Shown here piece by piece: positions 30,094 to 38,524 of a stretch of 64,000 nucleotides of DNA. The stretch's first letter is position 1, and each line of letters starts with the position of its first letter. The notes under the pieces are model-generated. The model was not told where the DNA came from. It ran no database searches and saw only the letters and a program-made list of their open reading frames with translations. The position numbers and the translations under genes are program-made. This DNA is from Lichenibacterium minor (GTDB taxonomy: Bacteria; Pseudomonadota; Alphaproteobacteria; Rhizobiales; Beijerinckiaceae), in assembly GCF_004137685.1 (NCBI RefSeq), contig NZ_QYBB01000014.1, positions 62,001 through 126,000 on the forward strand, in the 5' to 3' direction.

Positions 30094-31827
30094 TCAGAAC
30101 AGGTTGCCCTGGTTGACCGGGCCCTTCGCGGCCCGCGGGACCGGCGCCTTCGCGGCACGCACCGTCGCCGCCCGCGGCTTCGGGCTCTTCGCGGTGGGCG
30201 GCGCGCCCCCGCCCCCGCCCGGCCCCCCCAGCGCCTCGACGGCGACCGTGCCGTCGGCGAATTCCAGCCCGAGGCGCGCGCCGGGCGACACGCCGGCGGC
30301 CGAGCGCAAAGGCTGGCCGGCGGCGTCGCGCACGAGCGCGTAACCGCGGCCGAGCACGGACTTGTAGCCGAGCGTTCCGAGGAGCTGTGCCAGCCGGGCG
30401 ACGCGCTCGCGCCGCCGGTCGTTCGCCAGCGCCGCCGCGGGCCCCATCCGCGCCGCCAGGGCGTCGAGGCGCTGGCGCGACGCCGCGTTGGCCTGGCGGG
30501 CCAGCGCGGCGCGGCCCTGCAGGGCGGTTCCGAGGCGCGCCGCCACGGCGTCGAGCCGCTGCCGCCGCCGGTCGGACAGGACCTTCGCCGAGCGGCCGAG
30601 GCGCGCGTCGAGCCCGCTCAAGCGTTCGGCCGCCCGCGCCAAGCGGGCGCCGGGCGACTGCGCGGCGAGCCGGCTGCCGACCCGCGCCACGGTGAGGCGG
30701 CGCGCGTCCGCCCCCCGGCGCAGCGCCGAAGGCAGCGCCGTGGCGGCGCGGTCGAGGCGCTGCCGCGGCAGCGCCAGCAGGTCGGCGCCCGAGGGCAGCG
30801 CGCGGGCGGTCGAGCGCAGGGCGTCGCGCGCGCCTTCCACCCGCCGCAGCATGGCGGCGCCGTGGCGGGCGCCGAGCCGGTCGAGCCCGACCGCGAGTTC
30901 GGCCCGCACCGGCACGCAGAGTTCCGCCGCGCCCGTCGGGGTGGGGGCGCGGAGATCGGCGACGTGGTCGAGCAGCGTCCAATCCGTCTCGTGGCCGACG
31001 GCGGACACGAGCGGGATGCGGCAGTCGGCGGCGGCGCGGATCACCGCCTCGTCGTTGAAGCCCCACAGGTCCTCGAGCGAGCCGCCACCGCGCGCCACGA
31101 TGAGCACGTCGGGCCGCGGCAGCCGCCCGCCGGGCAAGAGCGCGTCGAAGCCCCGGATGGCGCGGGCCACCTCCTCGGCGCTGCCGTCGCCCTGGACCCG
31201 CACGGGCCACAGCAGCACGCGGCGCGGGAACCGGTCGGTGATGCGATGTAGGATGTCGCGGATGACGGCACCCGTCGGCGAGGTGACGACGCCGATCACT
31301 GCGGGGAGGAACGGCAGCGCCCGCTTGCGCGACGGGTCGAACAGCCCTTCGGCGGCGAAGCGCCGCCGGCGCTCCTCCACCATGGCCATGAGGGCGCCGA
31401 CGCCGGCGGGCTCCAGCGACTCGATGACGATCTGGTAGGCGGATTTGCCGGGAAAGGTCGTGAGCTTGCCGGTGGCGACGACCTCCATGCCCTCCTCGGG
31501 CTTCACCCGCATGCGCGAGAAGCTCGTGCGCCACACGACGGCGTCGATGCGGGCGCCCTCGTCCTTCAGCGAGAAGTAGGCGTGGCCGGAGGAATGGGGG
31601 CCCCGGTAGTTCGACACCTCGCCCCGCACCCGCACATGGCCGAACCGCTCCTCCACGGTGCGCTTCAGCGCGCCCGACAGCTCGGACACGCTGACTTCGG
31701 GCGTGTTGGACAGGCGCGAACCCCCGTCCTCGCCGTCCTCGCCCGGCGCGGCGGCCGGGGCATCGAAGATCGAAGGGGCGGCGGTCCTGCCGCGCGGGCT
31801 CGTGCGAGCCGAGGGTCTGCTGGCCAT
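30094..31827 (-). CDS. xseA: exodeoxyribonuclease VII large subunit
   Basis: A 577-residue nuclease subunit that, with several XseB copies, degrades single-stranded DNA in both directions. An OB-fold ([28 protein letters not shown]... around residues 40-140) precedes the catalytic domain with [30 protein letters not shown] and [28 protein letters not shown]-type motifs. The long Arg/Ala-rich coiled coil (about residues 290-480) binds XseB. The last ~70 residues (after residue 510) form a Pro/Lys-rich tail ending near VNQGNLF, which is longer than in enterobacteria. xseB is not adjacent. It is divergent from the nitrate operon. Confidence 0.95.
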
Positions 31828-31877
31828 GGCGGCAGACTACCACGGCGCCCGGGGGCCTGTCGCCGTGCCGCCGCGAC

Positions 31878-31910
31878 GGGCGGGTGCCCCTTCGCCGGGC
31901 ACCCCTGCCC
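31878..31910. promoter_or_regulatory. long imperfect palindrome upstream of the nas promoter
   Basis: GGGTGCC (31882-31888) pairs with GGCACCC (31898-31904) across 9 bases, and flanking GGGC and GCCC blocks extend the symmetry. It is centred about 98 bases upstream of the predicted nasA transcription start, a distance suited to an enhancer-binding protein. The half-sites are in the opposite order to the usual NtrC box. Confidence 0.4.
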
Positions 31911-31911
31911 G

Positions 31912-31930
31912 CCACGCCGCGACGGCGTGG
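31912..31930. promoter_or_regulatory. perfect 8-3-8 inverted repeat upstream of the nas promoter
   Basis: CCACGCCG-CGA-CGGCGTGG, centred about 70 bases upstream of the predicted nasA transcription start and 35 bases before the -24 element. A candidate activator site for the nitrate operon. Confidence 0.45.
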
Positions 31931-31964
31931 GCCGGCTCGCCGCGGCGGAACCCCGCGCCCCCCG

Positions 31965-31980
31965 TGGCATGGCGGTTGCT
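31965..31980 (+). promoter_or_regulatory. sigma-54 (-24/-12) promoter of the nitrate assimilation operon
   Basis: TGGCATGGCGGTTGCT fits the sigma-54 consensus TGGCAYR-N4-TTGCW at every defined position, with GG and GC exactly 10 bases apart. The predicted start of transcription is near 31991, leaving a ~155-base leader before nasA. Nitrogen assimilation genes are classical RpoN/NtrC targets (established knowledge). Confidence 0.75.
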
Positions 31981-31994
31981 TGGACCTTCCCCGA

Positions 31995-32055
31995 GGGCGC
32001 ATGCGCCCGCCCCTTCCCACACGAGGGCCGGTGTCGTGGCCAGGATCGACGACAC
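31995..32055 (+). promoter_or_regulatory. two hairpins in the nasA leader
   Basis: The palindrome GGGCGCATGCGCCC (31995-32008) sits at the predicted 5' end, and GTGTCGT (32031-32037) pairs with ACGACAC (32049-32055) across 11 bases. A two-hairpin leader is where NasR/NasT-type ANTAR antiterminators act, but the loops do not show the expected A1/G4 hexaloop, so the mechanism is open. Confidence 0.4.
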
Positions 32056-32146
32056 GCTCCGGCGCCCCGCCGCCCACCCCCGCCGCGCACCGCGCATGCG
32101 GCCCTGAGCCGCCACGACGCCGCGCGCACGGAGCCACAGACCCGCG

Positions 32147-34285
<2,139 letters not shown>

Positions 34286-34786: not shown

Positions 34787-36505
34787 ATGACCAAACGCAA
34801 GCTGGTGGTGGTCGGCAACGGCATGGCCGGGGCCAGGGCGGTGGAGAACGTGCTGGCGCGGGGCGGCGGCGAGCTGTTCGACATCGTCATGTTCGGCGAC
34901 GAGCCTTACGGGAACTACAACCGCATCATGCTGTCCGGCATCCTCGAAGGATCGAAGACGCTCGATGACATTCTGATCAACACGCCCGCTTGGTATGCAG
35001 AAACGGGCGTCACGTTGCACAGCGGCGATCGCGTGGTCGAGATCGACCGCGCCGCCAAGGCCGTGCGGTCGCGGCGCGGCGTCGTCGAGAACTACGACGT
35101 CCTGCTCATCGCCACGGGCTCGAAGGCCTTCGTGCCGCCCTTCGCGGGCGCCTTCACGGCCGACGGCGCGCTGAAGACGGGCGTCTTCGCCTACCGGACG
35201 CTCGACGACTGCACGGGCATCGCCGATTACGCCAAGGGCGCCCGCAAGGCGGTGACGATCGGCGGCGGTCTGCTCGGGCTCGAGGCGGCGCGGGCGCTGG
35301 GCGGCCTCGGCTGCGAGTCGCACGTGGTCCACCTCGCCGGCCACCTGCTGGAACTGCAGCTCGACGCCACCGGGGGCGGCATGCTGCGCCGGACGATAGA
35401 GGGCTTCGGCCTGCACGTCCACACCGGCAAGGCCACCACGGCGGTGCTGGGCGAGGACCGCGTCGCCGGGCTCGCCTTCAAGGACGGGACGACCATCGAC
35501 TGCGACCTCGTGGTGGTGGCGGCGGGCGTGCGCCCGAACAGCGAGATCGGGCTGCGCGCCGGCCTGACGGTGGAGCGGGCCATCGTGGTCAACGACCACA
35601 TGCAGTCCATCGACGACCGCTCGGTCTACGCGGTCGGCGAATGCGCGCAGCACCGCGGCAAGGTGTACGGCCTCGTGGCGCCGCTGTGGGACCAGGCCAA
35701 GGTCTTCGCCGAGCACGTCACCGGGCGCGACGCCCAGGCCGCCTACCACGGTTCCAAGCTCGCCACGAAGCTGAAGGTGATGGGCGTCGAGCTCGCCTCG
35801 ATGGGCATCACCGAGCCGTACGACGAGCACGACGAGGTGATCCAGTTCGCCGAACCCAAGCGCGGCACCTACAAGAAGCTGATCGTGCGCGACGGCCGCC
35901 TCGTCGGCGGCATCCTGATGGGCGAGATCTCGAAGGCCGCCTACCTGATGCAGGCCTTCGACCGCGATTCCCCCCTGCCCGAGGAGCGGCTGGCGCTGCT
36001 GTTCGACCTCGGCGCCCCGCCTGTGGCCGTGACGCTGGAGGAGATGCCCGCCGAAATGCAGGTCTGCAACTGCAACGGCGTCACCAAGGGCGCCATCGGG
36101 GCCTGCGTGGCGGCCGGCAACCGCGACCTCGGGTCCGTGATGGCGGCCACCCGCGCCAGCATGGGCTGCGGCTCCTGCAAGTCCCAGGTCGCGGCGCTGA
36201 CGGACTATTTCGTCGAGCAGGTGTCGGAGGCCGTGCCGGACCGGGCGGTGGTGGCGGAGGACGCGTCGCGGCTCGACGGGCACGTCCAGGCCCGGATCCT
36301 GGACGACGGGACCTTTTCGATGATGCCCGACACCGAAGACGGGCATTGCACGCCCGCGCAGCTCCTGCGCATCGCCGAGGTCGCGGTGAAGTACAAGGTG
36401 CCGTCGGTGAAGCTGATGGGCCACGACCGCATCGACCTCGTCGGCCTGCCGAAGGACGACCTCGCCAGGATCTGGAACGAGCTCTACCTGACGGCCGCCG
36501 AATAG
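34787..36505 (+). CDS. NirB-like NAD(P)H flavoprotein lacking the siroheme domain
   Basis: A 572-residue protein equal to the N-terminal two thirds of the assimilatory nitrite reductase large subunit. In order: FAD domain (VVVGNGMAGARAVENV, residues ~7-22), NAD(P) domain (TIGGGLLGLEAARAL, ~157-171), a BFD-like [2Fe-2S] domain with Cys427-x-Cys429 and Cys461-x2-Cys464, and a single nitrite/sulfite reductase ferredoxin-like half-domain (CTPAQLLRIAEVAVKYKVPS). NirB proteins are about 250 residues longer and end in a siroheme/[4Fe-4S] domain, absent here without a frameshift. It is therefore most likely an electron carrier for NasA and for a separate nitrite reductase, like Flp of Bradyrhizobium. 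Confidence 0.88.
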   Translation: MTKRKLVVVGNGMAGARAVENVLARGGGELFDIVMFGDEPYGNYNRIMLSGILEGSKTLDDILINTPAWYAETGVTLHSGDRVVEIDRAAKAVRSRRGVVENYDVLLIATGSKAFVPPFAGAFTADGALKTGVFAYRTLDDCTGIADYAKGARKAVTIGGGLLGLEAARALGGLGCESHVVHLAGHLLELQLDATGGGMLRRTIEGFGLHVHTGKATTAVLGEDRVAGLAFKDGTTIDCDLVVVAAGVRPNSEIGLRAGLTVERAIVVNDHMQSIDDRSVYAVGECAQHRGKVYGLVAPLWDQAKVFAEHVTGRDAQAAYHGSKLATKLKVMGVELASMGITEPYDEHDEVIQFAEPKRGTYKKLIVRDGRLVGGILMGEISKAAYLMQAFDRDSPLPEERLALLFDLGAPPVAVTLEEMPAEMQVCNCNGVTKGAIGACVAAGNRDLGSVMAATRASMGCGSCKSQVAALTDYFVEQVSEAVPDRAVVAEDASRLDGHVQARILDDGTFSMMPDTEDGHCTPAQLLRIAEVAVKYKVPSVKLMGHDRIDLVGLPKDDLARIWNELYLTAAE

Positions 36506-37349: not shown

Positions 37350-37426
<77 letters not shown>

Positions 37427-37501
37427 ACGATCCGAACATGAACGCCACGGAGGGCGCGTTCGGCGCGGTGTCTTCGACTTAACGACGCGAACCAGACGAA
37501 C

Positions 37502-37578
<77 letters not shown>

Positions 37579-38451: not shown

Positions 38452-38524
38452 TGGGCGGTGACGGGCTCGAACCGCCGACATTCTCGGTGTAAACGAGACG
38501 CTCTACCGACTGAGCTAACCGCCC
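38452..38524 (-). tRNA. tRNA-Val(TAC)
   Basis: A 73-base cloverleaf without encoded CCA. The acceptor GGGCGGT pairs with ACCGCCC, the discriminator is A, and the anticodon loop TTTACAC gives TAC. It sits immediately upstream of the ClpP-like gene on the same strand. Confidence 0.97.

Follow-up and report, generated by a model that had tools for sequence, protein, structure and literature searches.

Predicted sigma-54/NtrC control of nasA in Lichenibacterium minor, and a predicted ANTAR-type leader element at a nitrate transporter gene

We consider it rather probable that nasA of Lichenibacterium minor is transcribed from a sigma-54/NtrC promoter through a plain leader, and that nitrate control is exerted at a separate transporter gene. 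The DNA itself holds a conserved sigma-54-type box, an NtrC-like site that two of the three species have, a predicted ANTAR element at the transporter and none at nasA; which activator binds, where transcription starts, what signals are sensed and how the cell regulates any of this are inferred from these. The window, the stretch of 64,000 nucleotides that was analyzed, is part of a 5.9-Mb genome (G000), which we compared with a sister species (G001) and others of the genus, six genomes with G000 included.

Within the window, nasA is separated from the divergent xseA gene (30094-31827, minus strand; TIGR00237 over its cut-off) by an intergenic gap of 319 bp (31828-32146). The gene (32147-34285, plus strand) encodes a NasA-type assimilatory nitrate reductase catalytic subunit of 712 amino acids with Pfam molybdopterin oxidoreductase domains, whose best NCBIfam match, NasC (NF047855), falls under its cut-off (824 vs 1100 bits). 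On the same strand, a NirB-like FAD/BFD electron-transfer protein (34787-36505) with Pyr_redox_2, Rubredoxin_C and Fer2_BFD domains, for which the NirB match (TIGR02374) is likewise under its cut-off, is probably the partner of NasA. Three of the six genus genomes have this nasA, namely that of the window, G001 and G002, with identities of 100, 91 and 85%, and by eye a similar divergent gene also stands beside nasA in G001 and G002. Elsewhere in the window there are three tRNA genes, at 37353-37578 and 38452-38524 (minus strand); the first two, equal in score and 78 bases apart, are perhaps duplicates. At gathering scores Rfam returned only tRNAs in the window, and the same search, which covered three transporter loci, likewise found nothing else there.

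The promoter box, TGGCATGGCGGTTGCT, occupies 31965-31980 on the plus strand, with GG at 31966-31967 and GC at 31978-31979, ten bases between them, and a predicted start near 31991. Sigma-54 promoters follow the consensus TGGCACGNNNNTTGC or a variant with Y at position 6. The sequence-only reading held that the box fits the RpoN consensus at every defined base, which is correct if position 6 is taken as Y; against TGGCACGNNNNTTGC there is one mismatch, T for C at that position. The box is identical in G001 and reads TGGCACGGCCGTTGCA in G002. The longest exact match between the nasA gaps of the window and G001, 17 nt, includes the box, and G002 keeps a box despite shrinkage of the leader behind it, from 156 nt in the window to 32 nt. 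Among 37 NasA-type loci of the family, whose flanks proved intact on checking (L117 is truncated, but just at the opposite end), four have a box within 500 bp upstream: the three nasA genes of the genus and a second nitrate-reductase-like gene of G000. Outside the genus we scanned 80 NasA loci, dropped three for short upstream DNA, and found no box within 350 bp upstream in any of the remaining 77. Comparison across related genomes thus upholds the sigma-54 promoter that had been proposed, with a box preceding nasA in all three genus genomes that have the gene and in none of those 77 loci, and with rpoN and enhancer-binding proteins encoded in the genome.

The match itself is not what supports the box. 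Genome-wide, G000 contains 84 sites within one mismatch of TGGCACGNNNNTTGC, compared with 147 for a reversed control pattern; because there is no enrichment, support comes from position and conservation. By arithmetic from the genome count, about 0.002 box-like matches are expected on the correct strand of the 319-bp gap. On sequence grounds the -24/-12 box at 31965-31980 is real. The box of the second nitrate-reductase-like gene, TGGCACACCCCTTGCT (G000:C122:39097; L118:1401-1416), lies 100 bp upstream of that gene, which has a CysJ-type flavoprotein part.

The nitrogen regulators of the genus, and the promoters of its PII genes, give the context in which the DNA upstream of the box was read. 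Each of the six genomes has one rpoN. Contig C22 of G000 carries what we take to be ntrC, with an NtrB-like kinase gene upstream, and nearby an NtrX-type protein with its presumed NtrY-like kinase; at least three further sigma-54 activators are encoded in G000, the NtrX type adjoining NtrC and those on C144 and C87. Both PII genes of G000 have a match to the box pattern upstream (C44:33153 and C126:3618), the latter ending in TTGA, without the -12 GC. Across the genus the PII genes form two sets, whose names we infer. The glnB-type set comprises L237-L239, L242 and L244, so called because a glutamine-synthetase-like gene stands behind the PII gene, together with L243; an upstream box with the -12 GC occurs in five of the six genomes, with one mismatch each. 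The glnK-type set (L240, L241 and L245-L248) has in all six genomes a TGGCA-type box ending in TTGA, not TTGC, and, 88-113 bp upstream of that box, a 17-mer that fits (T/C)GC(C/A)-N9-GGCA.

Two inverted repeats had been noted upstream of nasA, one of them a perfect 8-3-8, and both are there: GGGTGCCC-7-GGGCACCC (8-7-8; 31882-31904) and CCACGCCG-CGA-CGGCGTGG (8-3-8; 31912-31930). As perfect repeats they do not exceed chance: at least two perfect 8-bp repeats (loop of up to 8) also turn up in 91 of the sequences obtained by shuffling the gap 1000 times with dinucleotides kept. By eye, the G001 gap has no palindrome matching the 8-3-8 repeat at the corresponding place. Since shuffles reach it and no G001 counterpart was seen, the 8-3-8 repeat was dropped as a conserved operator, and it is probably a product of chance. 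The 8-7-8 repeat nests a 17-mer, TGCCCCTTCGCCGGGCA (TGCC-N9-GGCA; 31885-31901, plus strand), a candidate NtrC-type site centered near -98 and 80 bp from the box. The sequence-only reading had argued from the order of the half-sites that an activator other than NtrC might operate, because it took the outer GGTGC...GCACC as the repeat; the 17-mer nested inside follows the order of an NtrC site. Its arms and spacing are those of the NtrC-type 17-mers before one PII gene, the glnK-type, in all six genomes of the genus, so no other activator is needed, and the argument from half-site order is unsupported, although the site is weak and is missing in G002.

We regard TGCCCCTTCGCCGGGCA as a probable NtrC-type site, judged by its arms, its spacing and its counterpart in G001, TGCCGCATCGCCGGGCA, which lies 78 bp from the box. 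Of 5000 shuffles of the window's gap, 0.2% contain the pattern TGCC-N9-GGCA, as do 0.66% when the G001 gap is shuffled; in 111 kb of G000 the pattern is found three times, the nasA site counted. With an AT-rich matrix built from the six 17-mers that precede the glnK-type PII gene in the genus, TGCCCCTTCGCCGGGCA is the best 17-mer in the 325 bp upstream of the window's nasA, at 4.5 bits (E 0.11), far below the 21-29 bits of the training sites; TGCCGCATCGCCGGGCA ranks second in G001, with 2.6 bits behind 2.9. The six training sites stand 88-113 bp from the box, against 80 bp in the window and 78 bp in G001. The 67-bp gap of G002 contains no TGC-N11-GCA, and the best matrix match in G002, at 7.2 bits, outscores the window site yet lies 332 bp from the box. 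Before the transporter, the paralogue of nasA and the glnB-type PII gene we found no clear NtrC site in G000-G002, the best match there being 7.3 bits at 26 bp, and an enterobacterial-type NtrC pattern gave weak, scattered matches only.

The predicted nasA leader extends for 156 nt from 31991 to 32146 on the plus strand, and holds two weak hairpins and no ANTAR hexaloop. The two leader hairpins described earlier do exist as sequences, but as structures they fare poorly: the leader gains no stability over its shuffles, 122 of 200 of which match or exceed it (z +0.36), hairpin 2 (32031-32055) is lost in G001, where two of its seven pairs are kept, and G002 has its leader of 32 nt. Hairpin 1 (31995-32008) keeps four of five pairs in G001, with no covariation. 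ANTAR-type antiterminators are described, in the cited parts of two sources, as two stem-loops with six-base loops that have A first and G fourth (PMC3369931, PMC7496416); no A..G.. hexaloop occurs in the nasA leader, even allowing 3-bp stems. The ANTAR model R2 gives 7.4 bits at 31993-32032 (nominal E 0.014; 401 bases searched), compared with 85.1 bits at the transporter, and because 20 places besides the transporter site score as much or more in 31 kb of related loci, we treat this match as noise. An ANTAR element at nasA was dropped on the missing A1/G4 hexaloop and the noise-level R2 score, and the earlier suggestion of leader antitermination, given also the fold and the loss of hairpin 2, finds no support at nasA: the nasA leader is without an ANTAR antitermination element. 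A simple terminator scan found nothing in the nasA leader and does not discriminate, because it found nothing in the transporter leader either.

The leader also contains a 23-codon frame, from GTG at 32036 to TGA at 32107, whose stop and length recur in G001, where it starts with ATG, and which is missing in G002. Between the window and G001, 8, 8 and 3 sites of this frame differ at codon positions 1, 2 and 3, respectively, a pattern that argues against constraint at the protein level; on this pattern and the absence from G002, a conserved coding leader peptide at 32036-32107 was dropped. The second-longest exact block between the nasA gaps of the window and G001, CGGCCCTGAGCCGCC (15 nt; 32099-32113), could form a small stem.

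An ANTAR-type element is predicted elsewhere in G000. A NarK-family nitrate/nitrite transporter gene (L224:10519-12035, contig C107; counterparts in L225 and L226), just over the TIGR00886 cut-off, lies on a different contig from nasA. Divergent from it is the gene for the one ANTAR protein found in G000 (C107), which combines an ANTAR domain with two PilJ stretches. Within this protein, AINRAGQLRMLSQR resembles the NarX/NarQ motif AINxAGSLRMQSYRL, with its G-x-x-R, as given in the cited part of PMC8199190. A limited literature search found no description of the ANTAR-PilJ architecture, which is weak evidence of absence. A moaA-like gene lies near the pair. Upstream of the transporter leader (L224:10544-10610) stands a sigma-54-like box, TGGCATGCGTTGTGCA, to which both G001 and G002 have a counterpart. 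The leader itself begins with two stems of 7 bp, and in G000, G001 and G002 alike their hexaloops carry A at position 1 and G at position 4. Two sigma-54-like boxes stand back to back, 6 bp apart, in CGGCGCGGCGCTTGCA (L224:10497-10534), pointing to the transporter and to the ANTAR-PilJ gene, respectively; they are 15 bp apart in G002, and the second box of G001 was seen by eye in an alignment only.

The ANTAR models score the G000 transporter site at 96 bits (R1) and 85 bits (R2), and the next R2 match in G000 reaches 20.1 bits. R1 matches ten genomes, and seven of these lie outside the genus. Three genomes from another genus, g59 (G100, G150 and G063; loci L230, L231 and L234), have the double hairpin followed by a narK-like gene, with a divergent ANTAR-PilJ gene beside it. 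At the other four R1 loci (L232, L233, L235 and L236) no narK/ANTAR-PilJ setting was seen, the fourth g59 match, in G128, included; these matches are probably due to chance and were left out of the double-hairpin alignment (A3), which holds six sequences. In G063 the second loop has G, not A, at its first base. In A3 the pair cells are 98.8% paired, and covariation scores 0.243, compared with at most 0.086 in slid versions; both-side changes fall at two pairs only, a level reached by 60 of 500 shuffles, and the alignment had been fitted to the structure. In G000 an arrangement in two layers is predicted for the nitrate transporter gene, not for nasA.

Nitrate assimilation is known to come under NtrC/sigma-54 control, as with Klebsiella nasF, so the nasA promoter is not new in kind. 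What the window shares with Klebsiella nasF and Paracoccus nas is a sigma-54-type box, a probable NtrC-type site about 98 bp upstream and an ntrC gene in the genome; it differs from both in a NasA of actinobacterial/acidobacterial type in place of the family's common NasA. The NtrC motif given for P. denitrificans in the cited part of PMC5424462 is (T/C)GC(C/A)NNNNTTNNT(G/A)GCA, and TGCCCCTTCGCCGGGCA has the arms of this motif without its three defined core bases, the TT and T of the core being unmatched. In a further difference from Paracoccus nas, nasA here has no ANTAR element. ANTAR/NasT/NasR-type antitermination has its likeness in G000 at the leader of the NarK-type transporter, where it is predicted, and not at nasA; unlike NasR, the ANTAR protein of G000 has two PilJ-type stretches in place of a NIT domain. 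In the Bradyrhizobium narK-bjgb-flp-nasC operon, according to the cited part of PMC6759348, a NasT hairpin is predicted in the narK leader, although narK rose, and did not fall, in a nasT mutant. A NasT-type hairpin is likewise predicted in the narK leader here, whereas nasA, unlike the nasC inside that narK operon (PMC6759348), lies on another contig behind its own sigma-54 box.

The NasA of the window is of actinobacterial/acidobacterial type. It shares 42% identity with its G000 paralogue, and within the family two g64 genomes have matches at 68-69%, followed by 25 next-best loci at 36-40%; the best 80 loci listed from other genomes lie at 57-66%, most of them actinobacterial, some from acidobacterial or proteobacterial MAGs. 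In a tree of 34 sequences, hand-picked from those fetched, its nearest neighbors are the g64 sequences (support 0.997), joined next by proteobacterial and acidobacterial MAGs (0.924); together with the actinobacterial sequences these make up a clade (0.86) apart from the common NasA of the family, a grouping that carries no direction of transfer. The g64 locus L222 (G103) has the NasA that is nearest outside the genus, and by eye it is preceded by NasT-like and NasS-like genes, then a uroporphyrinogen-methyltransferase-like gene and an MFS transporter gene, all on one strand. The g64 transporter (P0002) had no match in the genus at E 1e-20, an empty answer that is uninformative in itself.

The mechanism that we propose for nasA would begin with nitrogen limitation, under which phosphorylated NtrC would occupy TGCCCCTTCGCCGGGCA, some 98 bp upstream of the start, and contact and open the sigma-54 polymerase at 31965-31980. 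Transcription of nasA, probably together with its NirB-like partner, would follow, and the leader would serve as a plain 5' UTR with no ANTAR antitermination element. Nitrate-specific induction would act at uptake, where the ANTAR-PilJ protein would read the double hairpin in the leader of the NarK-type transporter.

Other readings of the promoter bear on the activator and on the box. That a real sigma-54 promoter is driven by another enhancer-binding protein, of the NtrX type or encoded on C144 or C87, strikes us as unlikely. Such proteins are encoded in G000, G002 lacks the NtrC-like site, and in G000-G002 neither the transporter nor the glnB-type PII gene has a clear NtrC site upstream; yet just one upstream element was found to be shared by the window and G001, and its length and arms are of the NtrC type, like those of the glnK-type sites. 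It is very improbable that the box is a chance match and that nasA is read from another promoter. The genome-wide count, below that of the reversed control, is what such a reading can draw on, but next to nothing is expected in the gap by chance and all three genomes and the paralogue have a box, which at nasA sits in the longest conserved block. A simple scan upstream of nasA also found no sigma-70-like site, a scan that expects none by chance either.

The leader has been the basis of two further readings. Control in two layers at nasA itself, with sigma-54 activation and then NasT/ANTAR-type antitermination in the leader, appears quite improbable. G000 does have an ANTAR protein, the R2 match at nasA has a low nominal E, and the cited parts of two papers describe Paracoccus denitrificans nasA as governed by leader hairpins (PMC5424462) and report that a clear hairpin was not seen for every NasT-dependent gene (PMC6759348). 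Against this stand the lack of an A..G.. hexaloop, a score that is noise where chance matches in the genome reach 20 bits, a fold no better than that of shuffles, a second hairpin not kept in G001 and the short G002 leader. Attenuation of nasA by ribosome stalling on the 23-codon leader peptide is less probable again: the stop and length kept in G001 speak for it, but the codon-position differences and the absence from G002 speak against it, and GC-rich DNA of this kind often contains open frames.

We therefore return to a sigma-54/NtrC promoter with a plain leader, which for nasA is ordinary nitrogen control; the value of this reading is that it corrects the two-layer interpretation of nasA and shows the probable place of the second layer. 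More tentatively, and with somewhat less than even confidence, we suggest that an acquired nasA of actinobacterial/acidobacterial type may have been wired into the sigma-54/NtrC network of its host, with nitrate control moved to a transporter that has a sigma-54-type promoter and exerted by a one-component ANTAR-PilJ protein, with two G-x-x-R motifs of nitrate-binding type, acting on the double hairpin of the leader. The ANTAR-PilJ/NarK pair would then represent a single-protein nitrate sensor and antiterminator with a sensor domain unlike that of NasR, and, if this is true, the two layers of nitrate control would be split between two unlinked genes.
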